IMG/VR virus record: IMGVR_UViG_3300024262_000047
Span: 1 to 49,655 of that record
Reading direction: 5' to 3' (one strand)
DNA from: a virus
DNA: 49,655 nucleotides
Shown: one piece after another, positions 9,030 through 49,655 of the stretch
Position numbering within the stretch: the first letter of the stretch is position 1
How the letters are laid out: each line of letters opens with the position of its first letter
Made by a program: the position numbers and the translations under genes
Notes under the pieces: generated by a model
The model's database searches: none
Told to the model about the DNA's origin: nothing
What the model saw: only the letters and a program-made list of their open reading frames with translations

Positions 9030-9046
9030 ATCTAAATATTTTATAT

Positions 9047-9054
9047 ATAAATAT
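9047..9054 (-). promoter_or_regulatory. Late-type promoter motif ATATTTAT
   Basis: Reads ATATTTAT leftward, 17 nt before the start at 9029. The same motif precedes most tagged virion genes. Confidence 0.5.
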
Positions 9055-9085
9055 TTGTATTTTAGGAAAATTACCATTATCTTTA
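9054..9085 (+). promoter_or_regulatory. Host-type promoter (TTTG-N20-TATCTTTA)
   Basis: TTTG 9054-9057, 20-nt spacer, TATCTTTA 9078-9085, then 4 nt to the ATG at 9090, so a leaderless transcript is expected. Confidence 0.65.
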
Positions 9086-9089
9086 TATT

Positions 9090-25165: not shown

Positions 25166-25248
25166 GGAGGGATGCCAGAGTGGTTAATGGAGCAGTTTGC
25201 TAAACTGTCGTCGGTCTCGACGCGTGGGTTCGAATCCCACTCCCTCCG
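25166..25248 (+). tRNA. tRNA-Ser (GCT)
   Basis: Full cloverleaf: GGAGGGA / TCCCTCC acceptor, loop TTGCTAA giving anticodon GCT, long variable arm (GTCTCGAC), TTCGAAT T-loop. CCA is not fully encoded (GCA follows). Confidence 0.95.
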
Positions 25249-25262
25249 CAAAATTTAATAAC

Positions 25263-25379
25263 ATGGGATTCGATTATATTTTAGAAGTAAACACCACTCA
25301 TTTAGAGTATGAGATTTATTTAACTGAAGATGATATTACGTCAATTAATTTTGAAAACTACTCAACTACATTTGGTTAA
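25263..25379 (+). CDS. Small acidic unknown protein, 38 aa
   Basis: MGFDYILEVNTTHLEYEIYL start just 15 nt after the tRNA-Ser. Acidic; no motif. Its 3' end contains the -33 box of the next promoter. Composition fits its neighbours, but the size leaves doubt. Confidence 0.4.
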   Translation: MGFDYILEVNTTHLEYEIYLTEDDITSINFENYSTTFG

Positions 25380-25402
25380 ATATAAGTTTTACCTTATATT
25401 TG
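25371..25402 (+). promoter_or_regulatory. Host-type promoter (TTTG-N20-TATATTTG)
   Basis: TTTG 25371-25374, 20-nt spacer, TATATTTG 25395-25402; 32-nt leader to the ATG at 25435. Confidence 0.75.
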
Positions 25403-25434
25403 TATTATTAAGTAAAACATAAAAAATAAATCAA

Positions 25435-25689
25435 ATGTCAAAAGAAAAACTATATAGGTCTGCAAATGGTGACTATCTCTATTTGTTCAATTGGGTGTGT
25501 GGAGGGTTTAACGATGTGTGGGCACCTAATAAAAAAGAAGCTTATCGGATTGTTGTGAAGGAAAATAAAGCTCATGAAAGTGAGAATCCTGAATATGTTA
25601 AGTTACGACCAGACTATAAGTCTATGCGTCGATGTACATATAGTGAATATCAAGAACAGAATAAAATGGGTTGGTTGTTATCCATTTAA
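25435..25689 (+). CDS. Unknown protein, 84 aa
   Basis: Tyr/Trp-rich, basic soluble protein (LYRSANGDYLYLFNWVCGGF), no recognised family. A clear promoter lies 32 nt upstream. The tRNA-Lys follows 11 nt after the stop, so gene and tRNA are probably in one transcript. Confidence 0.7.
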   Translation: MSKEKLYRSANGDYLYLFNWVCGGFNDVWAPNKKEAYRIVVKENKAHESENPEYVKLRPDYKSMRRCTYSEYQEQNKMGWLLSI

Positions 25690-25699
25690 TATAATACAT

Positions 25700-25773
25700 G
25701 ACTTCGTAGCTCAGTTGGTTAGAGCATCTCACTTTTAATGAGAGGGTCCTGGGTTCGAGTCCCAGCGGGGTCA
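25700..25773 (+). tRNA. tRNA-Lys (TTT)
   Basis: Acceptor GACTTCG / CGGGGTC (two G-U pairs), anticodon loop CTTTTAA, TTCGAGT T-loop, discriminator A. Confidence 0.93.
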
Positions 25774-25904
25774 CTTCATCTACCTAAATTTATAACAACA
25801 TGAAATATTAGAAATAACAAACAAATCGGATTAAATTAAACTTATAATGTATAAAAAAAAATATTTCCTGAGTAGGGTAAGAGTAAAGGGAAGTACATAA
25901 TTAA

Positions 25905-26016
25905 AACGCTCCTTGTGTGAGTTGGTAAGGTAGCAGCACAAGACTCATCGGACGCTTACCAAGTCTTGGGTGGGAGGTGAAAGGACACAATACCGGGTAC
26001 CTATCAAAATCCCGAT
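25905..26016 (+). ncRNA. Structured GC-rich spacer, tRNA-like but not canonical
   Basis: About 50 percent GC in an AT-rich genome. CTTGTGT can pair with GCACAAG around a D-loop-like GAGTTGGTAAGG, and CAAGACT pairs perfectly with AGTCTTG. A further CCGGG/CCCG pairing lies at 25994-26014. No anticodon arm of standard form was found. It could be a decayed tRNA or a distinct small RNA processed with the tRNAs. Confidence 0.35.
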
Positions 26017-26018
26017 AT

Positions 26019-26099
26019 ACCGAAGTGGTGAAATGGTAGACACGAATGCCTTAGGAGCATTTACCATATGGTGTGTGGGTTCGAGTCCCTCCTTCGGTA
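26019..26099 (+). tRNA. tRNA-Leu (TAG)
   Basis: Acceptor ACCGAAG / CTTCGGT, loop CTTAGGA with anticodon TAG, long variable arm, discriminator A as expected for Leu. Confidence 0.93.
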
Positions 26100-26107
26100 C
26101 TAAATAA

Positions 26108-26177
26108 GGTCAGATGTCTGAATGGAAGGTATAGGACAGCAAATCCTATTACGGTGGTTCGAATCCACCTCTGACCT
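26108..26177 (+). tRNA. tRNA-Cys (GCA), A at position 33
   Basis: Acceptor GGTCAGA / TCTGACC, T-arm GGTGG-TTCGAAT-CCACC, anticodon loop CAGCAAA (GCA). Discriminator T matches Cys identity. The normally invariant U33 is A, and the molecule is short (70 nt). Confidence 0.8.
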
Positions 26178-26204
26178 CAATTGAATGAATAAAATAAAAA
26201 AACT

Positions 26205-26468
26205 ATGTATGACCCGAAAAAAGACCCTGCGTTTACAGATAATCCGTATTTAACTGATTACCAACTAATGAATGACCCGTGTGATAACCCTAACCCACCA
26301 TGATGGTGTACAGAAGGTGGTGGAGGGTGTAACAACCCAAATCACCCTGAATGGTGTGATGGGATTCATGAGTCAGTACCTATCGAACCAGTCATATTTA
26401 TGTTGTTTATTTCTTTAATGTTTGGTGTGGCTTTAATTAAGAAAAGATTTGTTTTTTCGAGAAAATAA
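26205..26468 (+). CDS. Membrane-anchored small protein interrupted by an in-frame TGA
   Basis: An 88-codon frame (including stop) starting MYDPKKDPAFTDNPYLT. Codon 33 (26301-26303) is TGA, immediately followed by TGG. Downstream, the same frame continues with coding character: WCTEGGGGCNNPNHPEWC, then PIEPVIFMLFISLMFGVALI, a C-terminal TM segment and basic tail KKRFVFSRK. The Asp/Asn/Pro-rich region with Cys pairs and C-terminal anchor resembles small surface proteins of Bacteroidota. Other genes here use TGA as a normal stop, so this is either readthrough, a nonsense mutation or a sequencing error. Confidence 0.5.
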
Positions 26469-26479
26469 CTATATATTTG
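26448..26479 (+). promoter_or_regulatory. Host-type promoter (TTTG-N20-TATATTTG)
   Basis: TTTG 26448-26451, 20-nt spacer, TATATTTG 26472-26479; followed by a boxA-like GTTCGTTGAA (26485-26494). First of three tRNA-operon promoters within 255 nt. Confidence 0.75.
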
Positions 26480-26528
26480 TAGTAGTTCGTTGAAGTAATA
26501 ATAAGTGGCAAAAACAAACAAAAAAAGA

Positions 26529-26560
26529 TTTGGACTATTAATAAAGGTTTCTTATCTTTG
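26529..26560 (+). promoter_or_regulatory. Host-type promoter for tRNA-Arg
   Basis: TTTG 26529-26532, 20-nt spacer, TATCTTTG 26553-26560, 19 nt before the tRNA. Confidence 0.8.
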
Positions 26561-26565
26561 TTTAA

Positions 26566-26576
26566 GTTCTTTAACA
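26566..26576 (+). promoter_or_regulatory. boxA-like antitermination element
   Basis: GTTCTTTAACA differs by one base from the rRNA boxA consensus GCTCTTTAACA. Similar copies lie at 26485-26494, 26708-26717, 26815-26824 and 28861-28871. Confidence 0.5.
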
Positions 26577-26579
26577 TAT

Positions 26580-26653
26580 GCACCCGTAGCTCAGTTGGAT
26601 AGAGCATCTGCCTTCTAAGCAGACGGTCACAGGTTCGAGTCCTGTCGGGTGTA
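26580..26653 (+). tRNA. tRNA-Arg (TCT)
   Basis: Acceptor GCACCCG / CGGGTGT, anticodon loop CTTCTAA, TTCGAGT T-loop, discriminator A. TCT reads AGA, a favoured Arg codon in AT-rich genes. Confidence 0.95.
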
Positions 26654-26671
26654 CAAAAAATCTACAAAAGA

Positions 26672-26703
26672 TTTGGTACTTTTAAAAATGTTACTTATCT
26701 TTG
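26672..26703 (+). promoter_or_regulatory. Host-type promoter for tRNA-Leu(TAA)
   Basis: TTTG 26672-26675, 20-nt spacer, TATCTTTG 26696-26703. Confidence 0.8.
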
Positions 26704-26721
26704 TAGTGTTCTTTACAAGAT

Positions 26722-26805
26722 GCTTGGATGGTGGAATAGGTAGACACGTCAGACTTAAAATCTGATTCCCCAACGGGAGTGCGGGTTCGATTCCCGCTCC
26801 GAGTA
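26722..26805 (+). tRNA. tRNA-Leu (TAA)
   Basis: Acceptor GCTTGGA / TCCGAGT, loop CTTAAAA, long variable arm (CCCCAACGGG), discriminator A. Confidence 0.95.
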
Positions 26806-26895
26806 CTAAAGAAAGTTCTTTGAAGTGATGGTATAGTTAATAAGTAAAAATTTCGCTGATGACCCCTCTGCGACAAAAAAAAAGGGAACCAATAC

Positions 26896-26969
26896 GGGGG
26901 CGTAGCTCAATTGGTTAGAGCATCAAGCTTATATCTTGAAGGTCGGAGGTTCGATTCCTCTCGTCCCTA
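26896..26969 (+). tRNA. tRNA-Ile (TAT), rare anticodon
   Basis: Acceptor GGGGGCG / CGTCCCT, stem TCAAG / CTTGA closing loop CTTATAT, so the anticodon is TAT (UAU), reading AUA. Most bacteria read AUA with a CAU anticodon modified to lysidine; a UAU tRNA avoids that modification. Confidence 0.9.
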
Positions 26970-27314
26970 CTAAAACTATAATAAAATGGGGGGTCGTCTC
27001 TTCGTCCTGATGATTGGCGACCTCCCGACATAAAAGCCGTGTAGTCGTGAAGGGAGTGGTGACCGGAAACGACCTGAGTACTAGAAAACTCAGACCTGGG
27101 TGGAAGCATATAGAGGGCATGATGCGCCGACTAAGTCTTATCTTTTGATGACTTTTCCATATTCTAGTTTGGAAGTATGTTCGGAGAGATGTGGGTTCGA
27201 CACCCTCCACTTTGGCTAAAAATGGTACTAACACTACCGAGTCCCGAACCTGTTGCGTGACTATAAAATATATATAGGGTATTTTCTTAGTGAGAGACTG
27301 AAAACACTAAAAAG
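26970..27314 (+). ncRNA. GC-rich structured spacer, 345 nt, between tRNA-Ile and tRNA-Gly
   Basis: No convincing protein frame. Visible pairings include GGTCG/CGACC (27002-27034), GTCGT/ACGAC (27047-27072) and CTGAGT/ACTCAG around an 8-nt loop (27074-27093). A tRNA-like 3' half (GTGGGTTCGACACCC, 27191-27205) follows a 5' GCCGA that can pair with TTGGC, but the anticodon stem TTCCA/TGGAA closes a 10-nt loop. This could be one or more decayed tRNAs or a separate structured RNA. Confidence 0.35.
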
Positions 27315-27387
27315 GCAGGAGTAGCTCAGTTGGTAGAGCATCAGCCTTCCAAGCTGATGGTCGCGGGTTCGAGTCTCGTCTCCTGCT
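27315..27387 (+). tRNA. tRNA-Gly (TCC)
   Basis: Acceptor GCAGGAG / CTCCTGC, loop CTTCCAA, TTCGAGT T-loop, discriminator T. Confidence 0.95.
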
Positions 27388-27489
27388 CATAGGTCGTAAG
27401 TCCTTCACCTACAGGATTGTTTGGTCCTTCCCCTTCTGTGAAAGGGGTTTTACTGAGCCCTTCCTGAGGTGTTGGACCCGACCTTTTTT
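27388..27489 (+). ncRNA. Structured spacer with closing stem and T run
   Basis: AGGTCG (27391-27396) can pair with CGACCT (27479-27484), which is followed by T6. Inside, CCCTT/AGGGG closes a 7-nt loop CTGTGAA that looks like a His (GTG) anticodon loop, but no D- or T-arm fits. Possible degenerate tRNA-His or a terminator-linked RNA. Confidence 0.3.
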
Positions 27490-27526
27490 CTCCCTTAGCT
27501 CAGTTGGTTCGAACCCAAAAGGGAGA
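27490..27526 (+). pseudogene. Mini-tRNA remnant lacking the anticodon arm
   Basis: The acceptor halves CTCCCTT (27490-27496) and AAGGGAG (27519-27525) are intact, but the D-loop sequence AGCTCAGTTGG runs straight into the T-arm sequence TTCGAACCC. The 37-nt product lacks D-stem 3' side, anticodon arm and variable loop, as if deleted by recombination between GGTT repeats. Confidence 0.7.
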
Positions 27527-27533
27527 GCGATAT

Positions 27534-27613
27534 GGGGGTATCGCATAGTGGCAATTGCGGCTGACTGTAAATCAGCTCCTTCGGGTTCGGAGGTTCGAGT
27601 CCTTCTACCCCCA
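27534..27613 (+). tRNA. tRNA-Tyr (GTA)
   Basis: Acceptor GGGGGTA / TACCCCC, loop CTGTAAA, long variable arm typical of bacterial Tyr, discriminator A. Confidence 0.95.
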
Positions 27614-27637
27614 CGCATCCTGAAGACTGTGATAAGT

Positions 27638-27669
27638 GGAGTGACTATTAATTTAGTCCTCCTCTTTTT
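27638..27669 (+). terminator. Rho-independent terminator of the tRNA cluster
   Basis: GGAGTGACTA / TAGTCCTCC with a bulged T, 6-nt loop and T5. Confidence 0.8.
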
Positions 27670-27692
27670 GTATTTATAAATAAAATAATAAA

Positions 27693-28631
27693 ATGAAAAT
27701 AGGATTATGGCACGAAGGACTTGTAGGGGAAGACTTACAAACCAATGAATCAAGTTTTAGTGTATATGCAAGTGAGTACGTTAAATTTGTTACTGACAAT
27801 AATATAGACAGGGCGTTTTTTATACTACATGACCCCAATAGTAAAGACGGTAAATACCTTAAAAACGGATGGTTTGAAAAGTATTGGTTAAATAAATTAC
27901 CTCAAAGTTGTGAGGTTGGGGTTTTAATTGATACTGAACCCGGTACACGATGGGTAAACTCTAACCCTATCTTAACTTCAGGTGATAGTATGGAAATCGC
28001 ATTTCAGTACATATCAAAATTAAATAAAACTTCGGGTAATAGACAAATAACTTGTGTGTCTTTTGATTCTGAGAATGTATCCGTTTCTGGTAAGTGGGGG
28101 GATGGATACTACAGCGTAGATGGTATTAAATGGATTAACTATATGGTGAGTAAGTATATATCCGACCCAAACTTTGATTGGGGGTTTGCTGGTCAATCTA
28201 CCGACCCTAACAAACTTAACAACTATAGGGAAGTTTATTGGGTTGGTGAATTGTTAGACTGTGGGTGTACTGGAATTTTAGCTCAAAAAGATAGTCCTAA
28301 ATGTCAGTGTCCAAACACCCCTTACTGTAAAAATAAAAATGACATAAATGGAATTTTAAATACCCCAATAGGTGAGTATCTTAAAAACCCTGAATTAACA
28401 GGCTCAACAATATGGTCTTTGTTTTCAGTAGAAAGTACCTCTAAAACTGATTGTGTATCATTACCTTACGCTAAAGACACTAAACACCCGTGTGGTATTA
28501 TGGATGCTTTTGGTGTGTGGGATAAATCGGACTTTATGTCTTTTTTAAATGAGGTTGAGTTAAAATATGGAATTAAACAAGTTATGATTTATGAATGGCA
28601 GTTTATTCCGAAAAAATGGTTAATACCATAA
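27693..28631 (+). CDS. Unknown protein, possible TIM-barrel glycosidase-like, 312 aa
   Basis: Alternating strands and helices (FFILHDPNSK, EVGVLIDTEPGTRW, ITCVSFDSENV, WGFAGQS, IYEWQFIPKKW) are laid out as in (beta/alpha)8 proteins, and the acidic ends of several strands (DTEPG, FDSEN) would suit a glycoside hydrolase, but no family signature is certain. A Cys-rich insertion (DCGCTG to CQCPNTPYC) lies near residues 189-212. A late-type motif, GTATTTAT, lies 15 nt before the ATG, which suggests a late, perhaps virion-associated, product. It follows the tRNA terminator. Confidence 0.7.
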   Translation: MKIGLWHEGLVGEDLQTNESSFSVYASEYVKFVTDNNIDRAFFILHDPNSKDGKYLKNGWFEKYWLNKLPQSCEVGVLIDTEPGTRWVNSNPILTSGDSMEIAFQYISKLNKTSGNRQITCVSFDSENVSVSGKWGDGYYSVDGIKWINYMVSKYISDPNFDWGFAGQSTDPNKLNNYREVYWVGELLDCGCTGILAQKDSPKCQCPNTPYCKNKNDINGILNTPIGEYLKNPELTGSTIWSLFSVESTSKTDCVSLPYAKDTKHPCGIMDAFGVWDKSDFMSFLNEVELKYGIKQVMIYEWQFIPKKWLIP

Positions 28632-28651
28632 AAATGTGTTAAAAAAATCCT

Positions 28652-28659
28652 TATATTTG
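28652..28659 (+). promoter_or_regulatory. -7 box TATATTTG
   Basis: Perfect -7 element 4 nt before the ATG at 28664. No clear TTTG -33 box at the usual distance. Confidence 0.5.
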
Positions 28660-28663
28660 TACT

Positions 28664-28801
28664 ATGAAATCTGAAGAAATATTAAGAGTAAAAGACAACA
28701 TATCAGAATACGGAAATAATGAGTATTATGAAAAATCAAAAGCAAAAAGTTATACACCCTTTAATCCCATGTCGTGTTTTTATAAACTCACAAGAGAATA
28801 A
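28664..28801 (+). CDS. Small unknown protein, 45 aa
   Basis: A polar peptide starting MKSEEILRVKDNISEYG. The start is supported by a TATATTTG box exactly 4 nt upstream, the same geometry as the leaderless genes elsewhere in the window. No TM segment. Function unknown. Confidence 0.55.
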   Translation: MKSEEILRVKDNISEYGNNEYYEKSKAKSYTPFNPMSCFYKLTRE

Positions 28802-28897
28802 AGTAGTTAGTAACTTTATTATTAAAAAATAATAACTATAATAAGTAATAGTGAGAAGGGGTTCTTTGACATAAACAAATATTAAAATTTAAAAATC

Positions 28898-29236
28898 ATG
28901 AATACAGAAATAATGTTTTTTGTAGGGGGTATTTTAGTGTCAGGTCTATTAGGTCTGGTATTTTGGGTATCTTCTAATAAAAAAGAAATCGTAAAGATTC
29001 AGGAAGAAGACACAGAGTTATTAGAACTCTTAAATAATTTAAAAGATGAAGTCAAAAACTTAGAAATACAAGTTTATAAATTTGTAGATGATATCTACCG
29101 TGATACAGACCAAAGATTCCAAAATGAAGAAAGGTCTTTAGATAGTAGATTAGATAAAATGGAAAGCCGCCTCCATAAATTATATGAAGACGGATGTAAA
29201 CCAGTTGATAAACTTAAAACCCAATTAAACGGGTAA
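28898..29236 (+). CDS. Single-TM coiled-coil membrane protein, 112 aa
   Basis: An N-terminal TM segment (FVGGILVSGLLGLVFWV) is followed by a long charged coiled coil (LLELLNNLKDEVKNLEIQV to RLDKMESRLHKL). This topology is seen in inner-membrane spanins and in lysis-inhibition or envelope-tether proteins. The upstream sequence GAAGGGGTTCTTTGAC (28855-28870) is nearly complementary to GTTAAAGAACCCCTT after the gene (29242-29256). A boxA-like sequence is part of that upstream element. Confidence 0.7.
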   Translation: MNTEIMFFVGGILVSGLLGLVFWVSSNKKEIVKIQEEDTELLELLNNLKDEVKNLEIQVYKFVDDIYRDTDQRFQNEERSLDSRLDKMESRLHKLYEDGCKPVDKLKTQLNG

Positions 29237-29259
29237 ATTAGTTAAAGAACCCCTTTTTT

Positions 29260-29619
29260 TTAACCTTGAGCTTCTGACCATGATATTCTAGATAGAATAT
29301 TTGATGTTGTATTCCCGTTATTTTTTGCAAAAATTGTTATCGTATCCGGACCGTCAGGAAATGAATTAGGTCCTCCAAGTACACTGTTACTTAAATTTCT
29401 AATATTAGATATATCTAATGTGGATGAATTTGACCTCGTTCCACCTTCATCAGTTAAGAATATACCAATAACGTCGCCACCAATTACCTCAGTAGCTCCC
29501 GTATGGTTTATATATTGGGATATACTTCCATTACCCGACGCTATCCAATTACTATTATCCTCAAATAATGTGGAATTCCTATTAATCTTTGCAGTTACAG
29601 TAAATTGACCGTCATCCAC
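29260..29619 (-). CDS. Virion tail/fibre-type C-terminal module, possibly a gene remnant
   Basis: 119 aa starting at GTG 29619, with no good upstream ATG in frame. The sequence is beta-rich; TLDISNIRNLSNSVLGGPNS, then FPDGPDTITIFAKN and the terminal SRISWSEAQG match a short module I associate with the ends of phage structural proteins ('LGGxGxFPDGPDxLTI...ISWTEAQA'). A stand-alone copy without promoter motif suggests the tail of a once longer gene or a domain available for recombination. Confidence 0.6.
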   Translation of the reverse strand: MDDGQFTVTAKINRNSTLFEDNSNWIASGNGSISQYINHTGATEVIGGDVIGIFLTDEGGTRSNSSTLDISNIRNLSNSVLGGPNSFPDGPDTITIFAKNNGNTTSNILSRISWSEAQG

Positions 29620-29713
29620 AACTCATAAACTATAAATTACTTGATATTTTGTTTTAAATTTATTATAATTTAATTGTCTTTGTATAGACATAAATTTTTT
29701 AATTAATTAAACT

Positions 29714-29932
29714 ATGAAAAACTTAATATATTTATCTACTATTCTTTTTATGGTATCATGTGGTACAGTAAATGAGGAAAATGAAAATCAAATTATAATT
29801 ACTCAACCTGTTATAAGTGAAGATGTTGTTGATACAACCATTAACACTTTTGACCCGTCAGGTATTAGTAATGTTCAAGATTTATTGGATACCTTATCTA
29901 AACTTCCTGAGGGAACTGTAATCGAAGAGTGA
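29714..29932 (+). CDS. Small lipoprotein, 72 aa
   Basis: Lipoprotein signal MKNLIYLSTILFMVSC with lipobox MVSC (Cys16). The mature part is acidic and Val/Thr-rich with no domain. It is followed 1 nt later by a small TM protein and then a P-loop kinase, a compact three-gene operon. Probably anchored at the outer membrane of the host. Confidence 0.75.
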   Translation: MKNLIYLSTILFMVSCGTVNEENENQIIITQPVISEDVVDTTINTFDPSGISNVQDLLDTLSKLPEGTVIEE

Positions 29933-29933
29933 A

Positions 29934-30050
29934 ATGAAAAATCAAGGAAAAAGAGAAAGTCAAGTTAGAGACTCGTATGCGCTATCTTTTTTTGGTATTA
30001 TATCAATCATCGTAATGGTAGCATGGTGGTTACTATTAAAATATAGTTAA
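29934..30050 (+). CDS. Small single-TM protein, 38 aa
   Basis: A basic start (MKNQGKRESQVRDSY) is followed by one hydrophobic helix, FFGIISIIVMVAWWLLLKY. The stop overlaps the next start (TAATG), so translation is coupled to both neighbours. Function unknown. Confidence 0.6.
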   Translation: MKNQGKRESQVRDSYALSFFGIISIIVMVAWWLLLKYS

Positions 30051-30595
30051 TGAGAGAGACTAAAATAATTAATTTATTTGCCGGTCCAGGTGCTGGTAAG
30101 TCAACAATTGCTTCGGGTATTTTTTATGAGATGAAAAAACGTCACATAAAATGCGATTCACCATATGAATTCCCAAAGGAACTAGCGTGGAATGAGTCAA
30201 ACAAAGTGATAAAGGACCAATTATATGTTATCGCTAATCAACATAGAGGTATAGTTAGGTCTTTTGGTATTGTGGATTATATTATTTTAGATTCTCCACT
30301 ATTACTATCTTTAGCTTATAAAGACAATTATACTTCGTCTTACCCCGCCAACCTTTATGGTGATAGTTTTGAGAAAATGATGATTGATATACATAACAAA
30401 TATGATAACATTAATATATTTTTAGAGAGACCTATTAAAACTCATGACGATGACGGTAGATTTCACGATGAGGAAATGTCAATTAAACTAGATAATAAAA
30501 TTATTTCTATACTTAACGATAATGGTGTTTCTTATACTAAGATTAAAGTTAATGATGATACTATAAATTTTATTTTAGATTTGGTATTACAGTAA
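30050..30595 (+). CDS. P-loop nucleoside/nucleotide kinase-like ATPase
   Basis: 181 aa. Walker A GPGAGKST near residue 13, a Walker B-type strand IVDYIILDSPL near 83, and an Arg in NIFLERPIK that resembles the lid region of small kinases. Overall length and order fit the thymidylate/NadR-like kinase superfamily found in large phages. The substrate cannot be read from the sequence. Start overlaps the upstream stop (TAATG). The tRNA-Met promoter begins inside its 3' end. Confidence 0.75.
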   Translation: MRETKIINLFAGPGAGKSTIASGIFYEMKKRHIKCDSPYEFPKELAWNESNKVIKDQLYVIANQHRGIVRSFGIVDYIILDSPLLLSLAYKDNYTSSYPANLYGDSFEKMMIDIHNKYDNINIFLERPIKTHDDDGRFHDEEMSIKLDNKIISILNDNGVSYTKIKVNDDTINFILDLVLQ

Positions 30596-30611
30596 AGATT
30601 TATTATCTTTG
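30580..30611 (+). promoter_or_regulatory. Host-type promoter for tRNA-Met
   Basis: TTTG 30580-30583, 20-nt spacer, TATCTTTG 30604-30611, 9 nt before the tRNA. Confidence 0.8.
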
Positions 30612-30620
30612 TATCTCATC

Positions 30621-30694
30621 GCACCTATAGCTCAGTTGGTTAGAGCATCCGACTCATAATCGGCAGGTCCTAGGTTCAAGTCCTAGTAGGTGCA
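30621..30694 (+). tRNA. tRNA-Met (CAT)
   Basis: Acceptor GCACCTA / TAGGTGC, loop CTCATAA, T-loop TTCAAGT, discriminator A. Elongator Met is likely; a lysidine-modified Ile is less likely because a tRNA-Ile(TAT) is present. Confidence 0.93.
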
Positions 30695-30727
30695 CAAATT
30701 AAATAATTAAAAAGTAAACGTATTTTT

Positions 30728-31096
30728 ATGAAACAGAAAGTTATAAATGTCACATATAGAAAAGATTCTATTTCATTCCCTAATTGGTTAAAATATGAAA
30801 TTACTATCCTTTATGAAGATGGTAGCGAAAGACTAATTCCAGCATATGGAAAGGATTTAGAAGACGCTCTTTCTCGTGTTAAACACGACAATCGTGTTAA
30901 GATTATCGACGAAACTGTTAGTAAAATTCCTGTATTTTTTTGGTTAGTAATGTGGATTCTTTATATGTCTGGAATAACAGCATTAAATTACGAACTCGAC
31001 GAACCGATGATAATAATTGTAGGGTTAGGATTGGCTGGATTATCAGTTATCTTTCTCCAATGGTGGTATCAGATTAGAAATGTAGATAAAAATTAA
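30728..31096 (+). CDS. Two-TM membrane protein, 122 aa
   Basis: A cytoplasmic N-terminal domain (about 1-68, beta-rich with YEDGSERLIPAYG) is followed by two TM helices (PVFFWLVMWILYMSGI and MIIIVGLGLAGLSVIFLQWW). No family recognised. First of three consecutive small membrane-protein genes after tRNA-Met, probably one transcript. Confidence 0.7.
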   Translation: MKQKVINVTYRKDSISFPNWLKYEITILYEDGSERLIPAYGKDLEDALSRVKHDNRVKIIDETVSKIPVFFWLVMWILYMSGITALNYELDEPMIIIVGLGLAGLSVIFLQWWYQIRNVDKN

Positions 31097-31099
31097 ATT

Positions 31100-31180
31100 A
31101 TGTTATATTTCGCATATATATTTACAACAGTTTGTGTTTTACTTATGATTTACTCATTAATTAAAGAACTATTAAAATGA
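31100..31180 (+). CDS. Tiny TM peptide, 26 aa
   Basis: MLYFAYIFTTVCVLLMIYSL is one hydrophobic helix with a basic end. Its TGA overlaps the ATG of the next gene (ATGA), supporting real translation. Confidence 0.5.
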   Translation: MLYFAYIFTTVCVLLMIYSLIKELLK

Positions 31181-31536
31181 AAAAATACTTTGAATTCTCA
31201 GGTACCATTAATGGTACAAACTATTTCTTAAGAAATCTGTTAGCAACTTTATTAGCTTATATTGGCGGATTCGCGATAGGGTTCGGATTAGGTTCTGAAA
31301 AACTATTTTTATTCGGCATCGGTTTGATTGTCATATCCCCTACTCTGTGGTTTAGTGTGTGTACAATATTCAAACGCTCACTAGCTTTGTTTCCATTACA
31401 AGCGTCTATTATTACGATAGGTTTGATATTATTTCAAGTTTTAGGTATGGTTAACGAAATTTTTTCGTTAGTACCTTTAATTATGGGGTTGATTCTTATA
31501 TTTAAAAACTCTAATATTGAATCACACGAAGGTTAA
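31177..31536 (+). CDS. DUF805-like four-TM protein
   Basis: 119 aa. The N-terminal [19 protein letters not shown] is the entry motif of DUF805-type inner-membrane proteins (usually 'FxGRxxRxxY'). Four hydrophobic segments follow (about 25-42, 45-62, 72-90, 93-108). Function of the family is unknown. Coupled to the upstream TM peptide by a 4-nt overlap; a tRNA-Ser follows 8 nt after its stop. Confidence 0.65.
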
Positions 31537-31543
31537 ACCTTTA

Positions 31544-31628
31544 GGAGAGATGGCAGAGTGGTCGAATGCGACGGTCTTGAAAACCGTTGTACCGAAAGGT
31601 ACCGGGGGTTCGAATCCCTCTCTCTCCA
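31544..31628 (+). tRNA. tRNA-Ser (TGA)
   Basis: Acceptor GGAGAGA / TCTCTCC, loop CTTGAAA, long variable arm (TACCGAAAGGTA), TTCGAAT T-loop, discriminator A. Confidence 0.95.
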
Positions 31629-31651
31629 CACAATTTAAAACTAAAATAAAA

Positions 31652-43953: not shown

Positions 43954-44023
43954 AATAATATAATTTTAGTTTTATATAAGATAAAAAATAATAAAATAAT
44001 TGTCAAGAGATATATGAAAACAC

Positions 44024-44179
44024 TTACTGATTACGGTAAATGAACTCCAAATCCTCAATCTCCTTAATCAGGTCGTCGATGTTAATATTAGGTCCACCTG
44101 TAGTAGGCATCTGAAAAGAACGGTATCCCCTACTCTTCATGTCATATAAATTATCTTTAATAGTTAAAAGGTTCTTCAT
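44024..44179 (-). CDS. Small protein, 51 aa, paralog of 37614-37781
   Basis: MKNLLTIKDNLYDMKSRGYR start and INIDDLIKEIEDLEF match the 55-aa protein at 37614-37781 over their whole length. Two genes of one small family in the same phage support real coding. Function unknown. Confidence 0.65.
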   Translation of the reverse strand: MKNLLTIKDNLYDMKSRGYRSFQMPTTGGPNINIDDLIKEIEDLEFIYRNQ

Positions 44180-44198
44180 TACTTTTTATATAAATTTA

Positions 44199-44591
44199 TT
44201 ATTTAGGAATACGTTTGATATGGGGAACGATAAAATTATTTCCAGAGGAAAACCAATTACTACGAGATATCTTACACTCATCATACTTAACCCTACCCCA
44301 TAACCCCGACTCAAATAAACGAATACCCCGTTGTGAAATAAAAAAATCGTTGATGTATCCCTTTAAAAAAACCCTGTAGTCAGAAGGGGAGGTGTTACCA
44401 CTATACTTACTGACTATAGTATCAAAGAATTTCTTGTTCCAATTAATATTAAAACCGTAAAGATAAAAACATATCTCACTATAATCATTACCTTTACTCA
44501 TAAAGACTAACTTAGGTTTCTCTTCGTCAACAAGAAACCAATCAAAGTCTTTACAAAAATGTTGGAATATTAAATCGTACCTGTCTTTCAT
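44199..44591 (-). CDS. Unknown protein, 130 aa
   Basis: Aromatic-rich basic protein (MKDRYDLIFQHFCKDFDWFL) ending SGNNFIVPHIKRIPK. No recognised domain. A leftward TATCTTTG box lies at 44614-44621, 22 nt upstream, without a good -33 element. Confidence 0.7.
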   Translation of the reverse strand: MKDRYDLIFQHFCKDFDWFLVDEEKPKLVFMSKGNDYSEICFYLYGFNINWNKKFFDTIVSKYSGNTSPSDYRVFLKGYINDFFISQRGIRLFESGLWGRVKYDECKISRSNWFSSGNNFIVPHIKRIPK

Positions 44592-44629
44592 ACGTTGGAG
44601 GTTGTTAATAATACAAAGATAAGTGAAAA

Positions 44630-45184
44630 TTACTTAACTCTAACAGTAATCTCCAAAGGAACTGTAATTGTTTTCTCATATGAAGGAGAAATAAAAGAAT
44701 CCTCATAGTCCCCATCGTAATCCACATAGGTAATCTCCACTTCCCCACCATTAACAAGAACCTCAGATATAGAGGGGTAAATTCTTTTGTAGTTATTCGT
44801 CGAAGAACCAATGAACCCATTCTCTACCAATTGATTGTTGTTCTGACTGTCCCCAACTAATAAACAACCCGATGTGTCCTCAGCAGTATTTCCAATATGA
44901 ATTAAGATATACTCAAACCCCGGTACGTCCCTAACCCATAACATCCCCTTATTGAAGTCCGAACCAAATCTCTCAGTGTAATCTTGATACATACCACCCT
45001 CAGTCCTAAGTGTAATATTATATGTTCCTGGGGGAACTCTTGTTTTACCCATAACCTTTTCTTCTCTATACTCATCTTCCAAAGTATATGATAGAAACTT
45101 ACGTTTATTATTGGTTACATCGAAAAGGATTCCATTTGTTGATGTTCCTTCACTTGATATTCTTAATACTTCTAGTTTCATCAT
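44630..45184 (-). CDS. DUF5675 family protein
   Basis: 184 aa. The core SYTLEDEYREEKVMGKTRVP, PGTYNITLRT, then GMLWVRDVPGFEYILIHIGN and DTSGCLLVGD matches DUF5675, which has a fold related to L,D-transpeptidase-type domains (conserved His and Cys in IHIGN...SGCLLVG). The C-terminal ~50 residues are an extra beta-rich tail. It may act on cell-wall peptides, but the activity of the family is not established. A GTATTTAT motif lies upstream. Confidence 0.8.
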   Translation of the reverse strand: MMKLEVLRISSEGTSTNGILFDVTNNKRKFLSYTLEDEYREEKVMGKTRVPPGTYNITLRTEGGMYQDYTERFGSDFNKGMLWVRDVPGFEYILIHIGNTAEDTSGCLLVGDSQNNNQLVENGFIGSSTNNYKRIYPSISEVLVNGGEVEITYVDYDGDYEDSFISPSYEKTITVPLEITVRVK

Positions 45185-45220
45185 TATCTTAATTTTATAT
45201 TACATAAATACAGATGCAAA

Positions 45221-45250
45221 CAAAAAACCCCTCCGAGTTGGAGAGGTTTT
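45221..45250 (-). terminator. Rho-independent terminator
   Basis: Leftward AAAACCTCTC / GAGGGGTTTTTT. The 30-bp sequence is repeated at 46334-46361. Confidence 0.85.
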
Positions 45251-45273
45251 CTAAATACAAAAAGGATTGTTGG

Positions 45274-45450
45274 TTATCCACAACAGGATATGTCACAACA
45301 ATTACCTTCACACTTGGTCTTATCACAATGGTCCATCTCACAACAAGTTGTTTCTGACACACATTCTGATTTTGATTCACAACATGACATTTCTGATGAT
45401 GTTGTACAACCAAATAATCCGATAGTTAAAATTACAAATAAATTTTTCAT
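45274..45450 (-). CDS. Cys-rich small lipoprotein, 58 aa
   Basis: MKNLFVILTIGLFGC is a lipoprotein signal with lipobox LFGC (Cys15). The 43-residue mature tail contains 11 more Cys, five as pairs or in close spacing (MSCCESKSEC, ETTCCEMDHC, KCEGNCCDISCCG), a composition like metallothionein or a disulfide-rich surface peptide. A GTATTTAT motif lies 14 nt upstream and a terminator follows the stop. Metal binding at the cell surface is an inference. Confidence 0.7.
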   Translation of the reverse strand: MKNLFVILTIGLFGCTTSSEMSCCESKSECVSETTCCEMDHCDKTKCEGNCCDISCCG

Positions 45451-45485
45451 TTTGTTTTTTTATTATAAATACAAATTTTATGCCG

Positions 45486-45575
45486 TTAAGACCCAAACAT
45501 AACATTTAGTATCCCCATAAAGAAAATTAATATAAAAAGTCTAATTAAATTTATTATAAGTTGATTGTCATTCAT
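45486..45575 (-). CDS. Tiny TM peptide, 29 aa
   Basis: MNDNQLIINLIRLFILIFFM and MGILNVMFGS: one hydrophobic helix. The start is supported by a perfect leftward host-type promoter whose -7 box ends 4 nt before the ATG. Function unknown; small membrane peptides of this kind can modulate host membrane proteins. Confidence 0.6.
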   Translation of the reverse strand: MNDNQLIINLIRLFILIFFMGILNVMFGS

Positions 45576-45579
45576 ATTA

Positions 45580-45611
45580 CAAAGATAAATAAAAGTTCGA
45601 TTTTCTCCAAA
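45580..45611 (-). promoter_or_regulatory. Host-type promoter (leftward, leaderless geometry)
   Basis: Leftward TTTG (45608-45611), 20-nt spacer, TATCTTTG (45580-45587), then 4 nt to the ATG at 45575. Confidence 0.8.
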
Positions 45612-45678
45612 TTTTTCCAGAAATTTCTATAGAGGTTTTTAGGTTATTGTAGAAACAAGGGTCCCTTTTCTGAAAAGG

Positions 45679-45864
45679 TTAAGCTCCAATCTCACTAACT
45701 CTACCCATAATATAAACCTTCTTTCTTTCCAATAAGGCAATATCTTCAGTTTCTTTAGCATTCAAATCAAACTTATTCATTTTGATAGCTTGAATTTGGT
45801 TATCCAATTTGTGATACTCTGATAGGAGTCGGTCATACATCTTAGCTTTAGAGTCGTTGTCCAT
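45679..45864 (-). CDS. Small coiled-coil protein, 61 aa
   Basis: MDNDSKAKMYDRLLSEYHKL and a second helix (TEDIALLERKKVYIMGRV) suggest an antiparallel helical hairpin. No motif. Single leftward gene, with a repeat-containing hairpin region upstream. Confidence 0.6.
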   Translation of the reverse strand: MDNDSKAKMYDRLLSEYHKLDNQIQAIKMNKFDLNAKETEDIALLERKKVYIMGRVSEIGA

Positions 45865-45931
45865 AATACATAATTATTAGTTTATAGTATAATACTAAAT
45901 ATATTATTGTATATAATAAAAAAACCCTCCG

Positions 45932-45982
45932 AGTGAATCAAATCACTAAATAGTATAACCATTAGTGAATCAAATCACTAAA
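45932..45982 (-). repeat. Two 19-nt direct repeats, each a hairpin, near a terminator
   Basis: AGTGAATCAAATCACTAAA occurs at 45932-45950 and 45964-45982 (32-nt period). Each contains AGTGA/TCACT. They lie between CGGAGGGTTTTTTT (leftward T run, 45916-45931) and GGACTCG, so they look inserted into a terminator of the 45221/46334 type. Confidence 0.6.
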
Positions 45983-46002
45983 CGGACTCGTTTGATACAA
46001 TT

Positions 46003-46311
46003 CTAATCGTTAACTGTAATATAATCAATAACTGCAACAATATTACTATCGGGAAAGTATAGTTCATTTAAATGTAGAACCTCCCCAAAGACTTCACCCC
46101 TCAATGCCAATTTGCCATTATAACCTTCATTACTCAAACAATCTGATTTAACATTGATTTTTATACGTGGTTCTAAAATAGGCAATAAACTAGAGTCACC
46201 TAATAGTTTAATCTGAACTAACTTTATTTCATCAAATGAATCAATACACTTATTAACTCTTGGTAGTAAGAACCCCATAAGTAAGTTATACTTTTCTTCT
46301 AACTCTTTCAT
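46003..46311 (-). CDS. Unknown protein, 102 aa
   Basis: Start at ATG 46311 (MKELEEKYNLLMGFLLPRVN), chosen because a GTATTTAT late-type motif lies 4 nt upstream; an earlier in-frame start would overlap it. Helical start, beta-rich remainder (IKINVKSDC, GKLALRGEVFGEVL). No family recognised. Confidence 0.6.
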   Translation of the reverse strand: MKELEEKYNLLMGFLLPRVNKCIDSFDEIKLVQIKLLGDSSLLPILEPRIKINVKSDCLSNEGYNGKLALRGEVFGEVLHLNELYFPDSNIVAVIDYITVND

Positions 46312-46333
46312 GATAATAAATACCACTATAAAC

Positions 46334-46361
46334 AAAAAACCCCTCCGAGTTGGAGAGGTTC
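46334..46361 (-). terminator. Rho-independent terminator
   Basis: Near-identical copy of 45221-45250 downstream of 46385-46648. Confidence 0.8.
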
Positions 46362-46384
46362 TTAAAGTTACACGGAATATTCAG

Positions 46385-46648
46385 TTATAGTTGAATAACA
46401 TATACGATTCCAATAATAATATTCACACATACGAGAATACCAAAAAAAGTAACCCAATTACGAATAGTTCTAATATCTTTTTCCATAGTATTAATTTGTT
46501 TTGTTTCAGTCCCTACTTTAGGTTCATTGTTTGTAGTATCATCTGGGTAGTAACTATCTGAAGGTTTTCCACCACTACTTAGTTTACCGAGGTAAACAAC
46601 TCCACCGAAAATAACGGCTAAAATTACAAGGTTTAATAGGACACTCAT
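46385..46648 (-). CDS. Two-TM membrane protein, 87 aa
   Basis: N-terminal TM (LLNLVILAVIFGGVVYLG), a polar loop with TETKQINTMEKDIRTIRNW, then a C-terminal TM (VTFFGILVCVNIIIGIVYVI). Perfect leftward host-type promoter 27 nt upstream and terminator downstream: a complete single-gene unit. Holin-like size, but there is no supporting context. Confidence 0.7.
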   Translation of the reverse strand: MSVLLNLVILAVIFGGVVYLGKLSSGGKPSDSYYPDDTTNNEPKVGTETKQINTMEKDIRTIRNWVTFFGILVCVNIIIGIVYVIQL

Positions 46649-46675
46649 TTTTTATATGTTTTTATTTGTTCATTA

Positions 46676-46707
46676 CAAAGATAGGGAATAGTTCCAATTT
46701 TTCCAAA
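46676..46707 (-). promoter_or_regulatory. Host-type promoter (leftward)
   Basis: Leftward TTTG (46704-46707), 20-nt spacer, TATCTTTG (46676-46683). Confidence 0.78.
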
Positions 46708-46749
46708 AATTTTATAAACATTTTTTTACAGAATCAATATAAATTTCAT

Positions 46750-46920
46750 TTATTGCATTGAACCCCCTTTTGGACCCCAAAACCCCCCAGGGGGAGGGGG
46801 GATACGGGACCCCCTACAGGAGGGGGGGACCCCATAGGGGGGTATAACGGGGGGGTTCTTAGGGAAAGTCCATATGGGTCCCCCCTTAGGGTATGTCCTT
46901 CTATGGGGGTTATGTCAGGA
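46750..46920. other. Noncoding G/C-run region
   Basis: No gene seen. Dense runs of 4-7 G or C (for example CCCCCCAGGGGGAGGGGGG near 46784) alternate, forming short palindromes and potential G-quadruplexes on both strands. Base composition is utterly unlike the surrounding DNA. Confidence 0.7.
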
Positions 46921-46998
46921 CAACTTAATATCCAAATATAATAGGGGGAAGTTATGAACAGACAATGTGTCAGGTGTTAATAACTATAGGGGGAATTG

Positions 46999-47030
46999 TT
47001 TGGTAGTCTCAGATTTATGTTGTATCTTTA
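46999..47030 (+). promoter_or_regulatory. Host-type promoter in noncoding region
   Basis: TTTG 46999-47002, 20-nt spacer, TATCTTTA 47023-47030. No gene directly follows. Confidence 0.65.
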
Positions 47031-47205
47031 TGTTGACGCTTCAGAATATATGGGGGGAAGAGTTATAAGCAGGTTGGAGTACACTTGCTCCCCTCTCGGT
47101 TAGTCACATAATATAAAGGTACGACAATAAAAGTTCATATACAATTTGTTTATTAATTATTTTCGCCGTATCTTTGAGTTGATGCTTCAGAATATATAAG
47201 GGGAA
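47021..47205 (+). repeat. 39-nt promoter-plus-leader repeat, two copies
   Basis: Copies at 47021-47059 and 47167-47205 share GTATCTTT, GTTGA(C/T)GCTTCAGAATATAT and GGGGAA; period 146 nt. Each copy holds a -7 box and the first ~25 transcribed bases. Confidence 0.75.
47145..47176 (+). promoter_or_regulatory. Host-type promoter in noncoding region
   Basis: TTTG 47145-47148, 20-nt spacer, TATCTTTG 47169-47176. Confidence 0.7.
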
Positions 47206-47222
47206 ACAATAGAGCGCCAACA

Positions 47223-47254
47223 TAAAGATACAACATATATTTTATATAACCAAA
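47223..47254 (-). promoter_or_regulatory. Leftward host-type promoter facing the rightward pair
   Basis: Leftward TTTG (47251-47254), 20-nt spacer, TATCTTTA (47223-47230). A transcript would run antisense to the one from 47145-47176. Confidence 0.6.
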
Positions 47255-47278
47255 TATTTATTGTTAAATATTAATACC

Positions 47279-47722
47279 ATGGATATATTTAATCAACATA
47301 TTGGAACAGGACCAAAAGATTTTGAGGTATTAGATAACTTACCCCCAAGTTATGAACAATATATTAATGGTCTTATTAGCAAGAGTAATGTTGTGGTCCA
47401 TTCAATTCCTTATACATCCCCCTACTATGACGATTCATTCCATATTAAAATATCCATAGGTGATAAACCTACCGATTTACTTATGGCAATGCAAGGGGGT
47501 TTGGATAGTAGTGCCCAACATCTATACTATAACTCACTCCTCTTTATGTTTACTATGATTCCCATGAGTAGAGAACAACAAATCATCTTTGTTAATAAGT
47601 TATTTAGAAAACACTTTGTGCCAATCATTGAAGATGAGATGGTACATTCATTACCTCTTTTCAAAACTAAATTTAATCTCTCTAAGAGACATATCGAAAC
47701 AAGACCAATATTAAACCTATAA
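47279..47722 (+). CDS. Unknown protein, 147 aa, in the repeat region
   Basis: ATG at 47279 (MDIFNQHIGTGPKDFEVL). Soluble alpha/beta protein with a possible central helix (LLMAMQGGLDSSAQHLYYNS) and basic end (KFNLSKRHIETRPILNL). No recognised family. An ATATTTAT motif lies 17 nt upstream. It is the only gene between the two repeat-rich noncoding stretches, so it could act on them (for example as a replication or packaging factor), which is inference. Confidence 0.65.
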   Translation: MDIFNQHIGTGPKDFEVLDNLPPSYEQYINGLISKSNVVVHSIPYTSPYYDDSFHIKISIGDKPTDLLMAMQGGLDSSAQHLYYNSLLFMFTMIPMSREQQIIFVNKLFRKHFVPIIEDEMVHSLPLFKTKFNLSKRHIETRPILNL

Positions 47723-48396
47723 TTAAGTTATCATAGGTTTTTAGTTTATAACTTGTTCATAACTAATTCCTCCTGTTGATAACTTTAGGGGGAATTGTTG
47801 ATAACTAAATATGTTAATTTATTAGGTTTTGTCAAAATGTCATGTGGACTTTGCTCACAGCACAATCCCTTTGGAGGGTTTTGTATTAGGTGTTACCCCC
47901 ATCTCTTTTCCTGCTAAAGTTAATTAATCGATGATTTCATCGGCAGAATCCCCATTTTTCTTTAGTTTCCCCTTTTCTAAATGTCTATTCTGAGTCTATA
48001 AAAAGGGGTATATAAATCCCAGATAAAAAGGTACGTTAATAAGTACTAGCGCGTGAGACGAAGTCCTATAATCCCCTCCAACGTTTCCCTATCCCCAATT
48101 CCTTTAGAAACCTGACAAAATGTCCATGTAAATAGACTTTCTTAAGTGGTAAAATGTGGTAGAAAGTGGTGTAAAAATCCGAAGGATTATGTATTACTTA
48201 TGTATACATTTTCGTATATGGTTTTGATTTTAGAAAACCCCTTACAGTATTAGTCTTTAAAGTCTCTGAGGGGGAAGACCTCTTCGGTTATTATGGGGGG
48301 AATGGAACTATGAACAATACATAACGACCCGTGTATACGGGGAGTGGTTCACGAAGTGAAATGTATAGTGAGTAGTTTCATTTACTCCATAATATA
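47723..48396. other. 674-nt noncoding region
   Basis: No convincing gene. It contains TGTTGATAAC twice (47774, 47797; DnaA-box-like TTATCAACA on the other strand), a CGATGATTTCATCG palindrome (47930s), several GGGGGAA boxes, and near the right end GTGTATACGGGGAGTGG and TTCACGAAGTGAA palindromes. A replication origin or regulatory region is possible. Confidence 0.45.
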
Positions 48397-48882
48397 TCAG
48401 TTAGTTCTTTTTAAACCTATAACGTGTGAGTAATCATAACATATGGAATCATACACCTTTAATATTTCATCTTTATATTTTATATCGTATAGTTCTCCTT
48501 TACCTGGCATTACTAAGTCATTTTCTTTTTTATATGGTACCACGTTTTCCTTTAGTGTGGTTTCGAAATCGAATGCCCCTTTTGCTTGATATTTAAGGTC
48601 TCTAAATGTTTCTATTATTACAGGTTTCTCCCCTTCATATCTCATTTCATCACATATCCTTTGTTTTACTGTATTCTTTGTGTAACCTACTTTTAGGAAC
48701 TCCATACCTTTTACACTAAAATGAACGTAATATACGGTATGTTCTCCGAAACAAGATTCTACTCTATTGATAATAGTGTTTATTATATTTGGGAATGTTT
48801 TCATTATGTCCACGAGTATTTTTATTTTGGTCTCCGTGGATTCATTTCTGATATTTAAAAATCTTTCGTATAGTTCTTTCAT
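48397..48882 (-). CDS. GIY-YIG-like endonuclease (T5orf172/MUG113 type), tentative
   Basis: 161 aa. After a helical N-terminus, TVYYVHFSVKGMEFLKVGYTKNTVKQRICDE resembles the GIY-YIG core of short homing-type nucleases (aromatic 'YYVHF' in place of GIY, then 'KVGYTKN' with R in RICDE). A later FETTLKE and GKGELYDI could supply the catalytic Glu. The match is partial; function as a nuclease is therefore tentative. Confidence 0.5.
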   Translation of the reverse strand: MKELYERFLNIRNESTETKIKILVDIMKTFPNIINTIINRVESCFGEHTVYYVHFSVKGMEFLKVGYTKNTVKQRICDEMRYEGEKPVIIETFRDLKYQAKGAFDFETTLKENVVPYKKENDLVMPGKGELYDIKYKDEILKVYDSICYDYSHVIGLKRTN

Positions 48883-48967
48883 ATTTTAAGTATAGTAAAA
48901 AAATTTGTTATTTCATTGATTGAATATTTTAATTTTCTATATTTGTTTTATAAATGAACTAAAAGTC

Positions 48968-49045
48968 ATGTTAAAGTATTTCATATTACTATTGAGTGTA
49001 TTTGTTTTTATAAACATTATTGATGAAATAAAATCTAAGGATTAA
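48968..49045 (+). CDS. Tiny TM peptide, 25 aa
   Basis: MLKYFILLLSVFVFINIIDE is one hydrophobic helix followed by a charged end. A TATATTTG box (48938-48945) with ATTG 19 nt further upstream gives a plausible promoter 22 nt before the ATG. Its stop lies 3 nt from the end of the converging gene. Confidence 0.5.
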   Translation: MLKYFILLLSVFVFINIIDEIKSKD

Positions 49046-49048
49046 TTA

Positions 49049-49655
49049 TTACATTTGATATAACTCCCCTATAGTATCACATAGTCTGTTATTGAATTGA
49101 AGTTTACCTAAATTATATTTTTTTAATATTTTATATATTACGTCCATCATTTCATCAAACTCCATTACTTCACAAAGATTTTCATTAGAGTAAAGACCTG
49201 TTACCATATCAGGGTCATGGTCTGTAATGTCAGGGTATACTTTGAAATTAAACTTGTTATATAACTCATCTTCTGTTACATCTTCCCCGTTGGATATAAA
49301 GGTTTGTACTATCTCTTCCGTTATCTTCCGAAAGGTTTCTTGTAATTTGGTGAGTTGTTCGTTATTCCATTCATAAACCACATCTACCACTAAGTTAGGT
49401 TGTCCTAAATATTTTTTTATATCATCGGTATTATTGGTCTTCTTTAAGGTCTCTACATACTTGGGGTCGTAACTCTCTGACATAGGATTAACTTTATCTA
49501 TATCAGCATCTATTTCGAACGTTACTATGGTGGCACGCTTGTTAGGTCTTAACGCGAAAAATGCGTCGTTATGAGTTATATACTTTTTGTATTCTAACCT
49601 TCCTTTTGCATATAATGCTTCGAAAACTTTCTCTACCGTCTCGTATAGTATTTTT
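49049..49655 (-). CDS. Unknown acidic protein, 5' end beyond the window
   Basis: The frame is open from the window edge: KILYETVEKVFEALYAKGRL and NDAFFALRPNKRATIVTFEI precede an internal Met at 49483, so the start is outside. At least 201 residues are visible, acidic and helical (EQLTKLQETFRKITEEIVQ, later FDEMMDVIYKILKKYNLGK). No family recognised. Confidence 0.7.
   Translation of the reverse strand, partial: KILYETVEKVFEALYAKGRLEYKKYITHNDAFFALRPNKRATIVTFEIDADIDKVNPMSESYDPKYVETLKKTNNTDDIKKYLGQPNLVVDVVYEWNNEQLTKLQETFRKITEEIVQTFISNGEDVTEDELYNKFNFKVYPDITDHDPDMVTGLYSNENLCEVMEFDEMMDVIYKILKKYNLGKLQFNNRLCDTIGELYQM

Follow-up and report, generated by a model that had tools for sequence, protein, structure and literature searches.

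A conserved non-coding locus in large phages of Bacteroidota-type bacteria, with convergent promoters, a predicted structured small RNA and a possible link to replication start

In ColE1-type plasmids the start of replication is controlled by the pair RNA I/RNA II. The origins of T4-like phages consist of a promoter and an unwinding element, and phages are further associated with the large RNAs GOLLD and ROOL that extend over several hundred nucleotides. RNA-based origins of prophages, situated next to parABS, are those of the cluster A mycobacteriophages Alma, LadyBird and RedRock (PMC7157519). How and where very large phages begin replication is mostly unknown, GC skew being clear in only part of the genomes of PMC7162821, and the conserved locus described here offers a defined stretch of DNA for the origin question. 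Its conservation, promoters, covarying RNA family, cluster of sites and usual single copy are all read from the sequence.

The locus and its distribution among large phages

The DNA under study, referred to as the window, is a viral record of 49,655 bp. Three of its genes give an indication of its source.

3672-5747: type IX secretion signal domain
13178-14209: gp23-like capsid protein
21598-23463: Hsp70

In a comparison with annotated phage records, the Hsp70 was most similar to those of uncultured phages 635-735 kb in size, and the promoters found throughout the window follow the Bacteroidota pattern TTTG-N-TAnnTTTG, in line with the flavobacterial sigma-A -7 box consensus TAnnTTTG (PMC9723704). 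The window would thus seem to be a piece of a large T4-like phage with a Bacteroidota host. Ten tRNA genes span 25166-31629, and several of them are located directly 3' of strong Bacteroidota-type promoters.

A non-coding locus at 46692-48400 is present in some 75 AT-rich viral contigs, mostly as one copy each. Its elements and immediate neighbours are the following.

46648-46385, minus strand: leftward gene, with a good leftward promoter at 46707-46676
46692-46757: AT-rich conserved left end, where nhmmer model B1 starts, candidate unwinding element
46763-46909: G/C-run block, CCCCCTT-N-GGGGATACGG, with GGGGATACGG at 46798-46807
46951-46960 and 46975-46984: two TTATNAACA-type sites flanking the conserved word GACAATGTGTCAGG (46961-46974)
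47279-47722, plus strand: fast-evolving small gene of 147 aa, 3' of promoter P2, with homologues in contigs L107 and L134
47736-48400: right-hand conserved non-coding element, with abundant short perfect hairpins
47743-47752, 47754-47763, 47774-47783 and 47796-47805: four GTTNATAAC sites in an array, with a spacing of about 21 bp between the last three
47830-47842: near-invariant core of the right-hand element, TGTCAAAATGTCA, a word of the class also found at phage chaperone and UVR-gene promoters

A first-pass annotation had described a compact locus at 46941-47261; the features within these limits are present, but the conserved unit reaches from about 46692 to 48400. Close DNA relatives of the window were found neither among INPHARED phages nor among plasmids, and IMG/VR yielded no relatives to queries with the small gene or with the right-hand neighbour. 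Relatives of the Hsp70 (dnaK) were mostly too distant to serve as a route to the locus; two of them have a similar G/C-run block and revealed the locus via its G/C runs, and their alignment to the window consists of shared pieces in largely the same order. The pattern CCCCCTTN{26,32}GGGGATACGG, taken from the G/C block, matched 84 stretches in IMG/VR. With the window counted, 75 of 85 sequences are low in GC, 53 of these 75 are distinct, and profile models of the left and right-hand blocks verify the low-GC sequences at the same loci. The word GGGGATACGG is present as a single copy in 31 of 34 large records and as two copies in the other three. To judge from such matches, the locus has been retained in dozens of very large viruses whose hosts are bacteria of the Bacteroidota type, and CCCCCTTN26-32GGGGATACGG provides a sequence handle that flags these phages in metagenomes.

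Model B1 matches the window and about 70 other loci; in the AT-rich left flank, the best 70-bp stretch is 83% AT, within the top 3.6% of the window. The neighbouring block is the densest G/C-run block in the window, and its pattern is single in most large contigs. Note that the G runs of the plus strand at 46785-46860 might form G-quadruplexes. With nhmmer the right-hand element was matched in 33 loci, mostly along almost all of its length. Among its hairpins of at least 6 bp, perfect Watson-Crick pairing is in excess (60 against 26) with no excess of G-U over A-C; the hairpin sequences vary among phages and the excess is equal on both strands. As only Watson-Crick pairs are enriched and G-U pairs are not, these hairpins resemble a DNA structure and not an RNA. 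RNAalifold obtained little on this element.

Convergent promoters and the predicted small RNA

The central part of the locus contains four predicted promoters, two kinds of repeat and a candidate RNA.

46999-47030, plus strand: promoter P1, TTTGG-N-TATCTTTA, position and spacer sequence conserved
47013-47059, plus strand: direct repeat, copy 1, the P1 -7 region and initial transcribed sequence
47016-47035, plus strand: left arm of a perfect 20-bp inverted repeat, holding the P1 -7 box
about 47113-47044, minus strand: window copy of the structured small RNA (short type B), core AAGUGUACUCCAACCUGCUUAUAA, ends approximate
47144-47114, minus strand: promoter PL1, TTG-N-TACCTTTA, preceding the small RNA and back to back with P2
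47145-47176, plus strand: promoter P2, TTTG-N-TATCTTTG, reading into the gene at 47279
47159-47205, plus strand: direct repeat, copy 2, P2 unit
47218-47237, minus strand: right arm of the perfect 20-bp inverted repeat, holding the PL2 -7 box
47254-47223, minus strand: promoter PL2, TTTGG-N-TATCTTTA, facing P2

The window promoters conform to the Bacteroidota sigma-A form, a TAnnTTTG -7 box with TTTG upstream at about 20 bp. P2 is a full match to TAnnTTTG, P1, PL1 and PL2 read TAnnTTTA, and the conserved forms in relatives mostly end in G. The -33 elements of PL1 and P2 touch, and the two halves of the region align as tandem convergent units, P1>...<PL1 (46999-47144) and P2>...<PL2 (47145-47254), the second of which is without about 35 central bases of the first. 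Over 47 nt the copies of the direct repeat are 81% identical. The 20-bp pair is the sole perfect inverted repeat of at least 16 bp with a spacing below 600 bp in all 49,655 bases, and because it is unique of its class in the whole window it cannot be attributed to chance. The first-pass annotation had correctly located P1, P2 and PL2, the shared first transcribed bases of the two rightward promoters and the inverted repeat with a -7 box in each arm, but had missed the fourth promoter, the leftward PL1.

The four-promoter layout is kept in the 169-kb contig L113, with positions 236+, 385+, 384- and 507- as compared to 236+, 382+, 382- and 492- in the window. Many loci have a rightward promoter about 235 nt from the start of the block with a conserved spacer, TTTGGTAGTGTCAA-TATTATTCGTAYCTTTG. 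Both P1 and P2 are kept in L134, and L107 has one promoter unit only. PL2 is variable: its -7 box has decayed to TAACTTAG in these two nearest relatives, and a good leftward promoter is found in a comparable place in L113/L166, L135, L057 and L066. Six contigs taken whole have a background of 0.08-0.22 promoters per kb, and the density of 0.74 per kb in 53 homologous loci is 3-9 times as high. As a probe, the 18-base start sequence TTGAYGCTTCAGAATATA was discarded, all its matches being promoterless and outside such loci.

Downstream of conserved promoters, many loci contain a predicted short RNA with the common 3' core GAGURKACUCCAACCUGCCUUAUA. Twelve long forms were aligned by sequence alone and the structure was then read from that alignment. 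In the four resulting helices, 9 of 14 pairs are altered on both sides and 88% of cells pair, with one helix occurring as CGAU/AUCG, CGACU/AGUCG, CAAUC/GAUUG, AGAUA/UAUCU and others. Double changes were counted in 26 cells compared to 8.2 in shuffles, and none of 500 shuffles reached the covariation score. In controls with slid strands pairing drops from 88% to 32-49%, a comparison that somewhat favours the RNA structure because the structure was read from the same alignment. The covariance model R1 of the long form matches about 30 loci, and of its 16 matches in 31 whole records (E 0.1 or better) all but one fall inside the locus. The orientation of the RNA is reversed in some loci. No Rfam 15 family matches window positions 44000-49655 at its gathering score, nor with relaxed E-values, and the same search on 12 homologous loci gave a single tRNA; U4atac, anti-hemB and further sub-threshold matches were judged to be chance. 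With its opposing promoters, the locus appears to encode one or more structured small RNAs, and the predicted RNA described here is a new phage RNA family, even should the origin reading discussed below fail.

In the window, the RNA copy lies directly 3' of PL1 and is antisense to the P1 leader. The sequence model R2, made from nine short forms with the window and its near relative L134 left out, has a single match in the window, at 47116-47057 on the minus strand (E 4.5e-8). The window RNA is a short and divergent form that yields 7.1 bits with the long-form main model, and its fold has no clear advantage over shuffled sequence (z -1.2). In view of the R2 match on the one hand and these weak values on the other, the putative RNA is a homologue by sequence and position, its own fold being without separate support.

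Overlapping sense and antisense short RNAs, as suggested previously, are the best reading of the region, with the convergent promoters conserved, one predicted product covarying and no Rfam match; the comparison with related phages that had been put forward as a check bore this out, both in the convergent layout and in the covarying RNA pairs. A start of the main leftward RNA at 47254 is not supported: the conserved RNA is found behind PL1, and the -7 box of PL2 has decayed in the nearest relatives. The assertion that no gene explains the region is wrong, because P2 reads into the real gene 47279-47722. Its product has 40% identity over 114 aa to an ORF of L107 at 8714 and 28% to one of L134 at 7850, with no match in Pfam or PHROG, and because of these relatives P2 has an ordinary target too. 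On the whole, the earlier reading is partly supported. The small, fast-evolving gene family is duplicated round the locus (47279-47722; L107:8315-8704 and 8714-9148; L134:7850-8236 and 9434-9120). A further neighbour of the locus, 48397-48882 on the minus strand, has weak similarity to T5orf172/GIY-YIG-type endonucleases, below the Pfam cut-off.

A possible role in replication and other explanations

Within the window, 8 of 12 copies of TTATNAACA fall within 1.5 kb at the locus. The corresponding count is 6 per 1.5 kb in contigs G020, G028 and G025 and 4 in G037, so that the locus is the top or joint-top 1.5-kb window for TTATNAACA in five of eight sequences, these four and the window. G040 has one copy and no enrichment, and copies in G036 and G013 are few and weakly enriched. 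Control words did not cluster at the locus. In some homologues (L122, L165), the DnaA-box form TGTGAATAAC is found within the TGTTGATAAC array. Near 98 kb, G020 has a second group of GGGGATACGG and TTATNAACA, which was left out of consideration; it overlaps a long open reading frame. The AT-rich flank, G/C tracts, clustered TTATNAACA sites and hairpins together look like a replication origin, and neither the site cluster nor the once-per-contig occurrence of the locus conflicts with a link to replication. GC skew, calculated for six possibly incomplete contigs, follows the direction of the genes, with no reversal at the locus; because it marks no origin there, origin function is put forward conditionally. 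Neither a replication gene adjoining the locus nor an initiator gene was found. Weighing the TTATNAACA cluster and the AT-rich flank against the unturned skew, we consider a replication origin the most likely role of the locus, albeit an unproven one.

We tentatively propose, with a confidence that falls somewhat short of even, that the region is the RNA-coding core of the conserved control locus 46692-48400 and that its convergent RNAs prime or restrain the start of phage replication; here we infer that the region is transcribed, that the antisense RNAs pair, and that the locus acts as an origin and is controlled in this role. The two tandem units would each consist of one rightward and one leftward promoter set face to face. 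From PL1, the first unit would produce the short structured RNA, the complement of the first part of the P1 transcript, and the second would have retained the same layout with the RNA core lost, P2 now driving the small gene. The surrounding AT-rich flank, G/C-run block, TTATNAACA sites and hairpins would constitute origin-like DNA, at which the sense and antisense RNAs might prime or restrain replication in the manner of RNA I/RNA II of ColE1-type plasmids.

Besides its occurrence in the locus, the word TGWCANNNTGWCA forms pairs with a spacing of about 31 bp next to a UVR-domain gene in five contigs (G020 at 128.4 kb, G040 at 153.0 kb, G037 at 218.2 kb, G028 at 67.9 kb and G025 at 157.6 kb). 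It also occurs upstream of dnaK in G013, G005 and G012. The UVR domain in G040 was assigned by Pfam; in this contig TGWCANNNTGWCA also adjoins a fragment that by our own reading begins a Clp ATPase but has no Pfam match. A single-gene regulon for these dyad words was rejected, as they stand beside the UVR-domain gene or upstream of dnaK depending on the contig. Because the words recur at both genes, the region carries transcription-factor-like sites, and this suggests one regulator acting on stress-type genes and on the locus. A separate Clp-ATPase-like frame, L238:12616-12906 on the minus strand, ends in GEPG-CVLEDTW and looks like an intein in the nucleotide-binding loop, without Pfam match. 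It is conceivable, but in our view unlikely, that a widespread group of large Bacteroidota phages has a common origin at which a new, conserved convergent pair of structured RNAs determines firing, with the shared TGWCANNNTGWCA operator tying it to the phage chaperone and protease genes.

Alternatively, the locus might be the gene of a regulatory small RNA acting in trans, made from PL1 here and as the long form in other phages, which would use its conserved ACUCCAACCUGC to bind a protein or messages of host or phage; the nearby DNA sites would then regulate only its transcription. Its own conserved promoter, the covarying fold and a nearly invariant stretch would suit such an RNA, as would the TGWCANNNTGWCA words that pair beside the UVR-domain gene and stand upstream of dnaK elsewhere. 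The near-complete confinement of the RNA matches to one elaborate DNA locus (15 of 16) argues against this explanation, as do G036, G040 and L057/L066, where the G/C block or right-hand elements are conserved without a detected RNA, and we regard it as rather unlikely. It is improbable that the locus is a site at which the phage genome is packaged, partitioned or recombined and that the RNAs are by-products. Such a site would account for the usual single copy per contig, the G/C runs and the perfect hairpins, whose strand-equal excess of Watson-Crick pairs alone is that of a DNA element; conserved promoters and a folded RNA are unexpected at such a site, and no link to terminase or partition genes was found.

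That the region is an ordinary promoter region of the gene at 47279 and the leftward gene at 46648, with the promoters duplicated as repeats and the antisense transcripts roleless, is very improbable. A real gene does begin some 100 nt downstream of P2, the good leftward promoter at 46707-46676 serves 46648-46385, and L107 manages with one promoter unit fewer. The non-coding DNA around the small gene is, however, more conserved than the gene inside it, and the locus persists where its neighbour genes differ; the covariation of the RNA and the position of 15 of 16 matches in the locus largely refute this possibility.

Relation to known systems

As with RNA I/RNA II of the ColE1-type plasmids, sense and antisense RNAs that overlap would, on the sequence prediction, arise at one site from promoters facing each other, here P1 and PL1 with complementary predicted products. 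The present RNA has no Rfam match, however, and the cluster of sites resembles protein-bound origins, a feature that ColE1 does not need. With DnaA-box and iteron origins the locus shares clustered sites (TTATNAACA, in some cases TTATNCACA) beside an AT-rich stretch, but most sites are one position off the DnaA consensus and no initiator gene accompanies them, and the strong G/C-run block and the RNAs come in addition. GOLLD and ROOL are likewise structured non-coding RNAs of phages; the RNA described here is only about 60-95 nt long and matches neither of their covariance models. T4-like origins also combine a promoter with an AT-rich element, and the window phage has a gp23-like capsid protein. 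To our knowledge, T4-like origins have neither convergent units in tandem nor a conserved structured RNA; the likeness is one of description.

The prophage origins of the mycobacteriophages are likewise phage non-coding regions that make RNA and may overlap small reading frames on the opposite strand (PMC7157519). They act in the prophage state beside parABS, whereas the present locus belongs to large phages of other hosts with no parABS near it, a distinction drawn by description. In contrast to those origins, it is characterised by conserved convergent promoter units, a G/C block and a covarying RNA.
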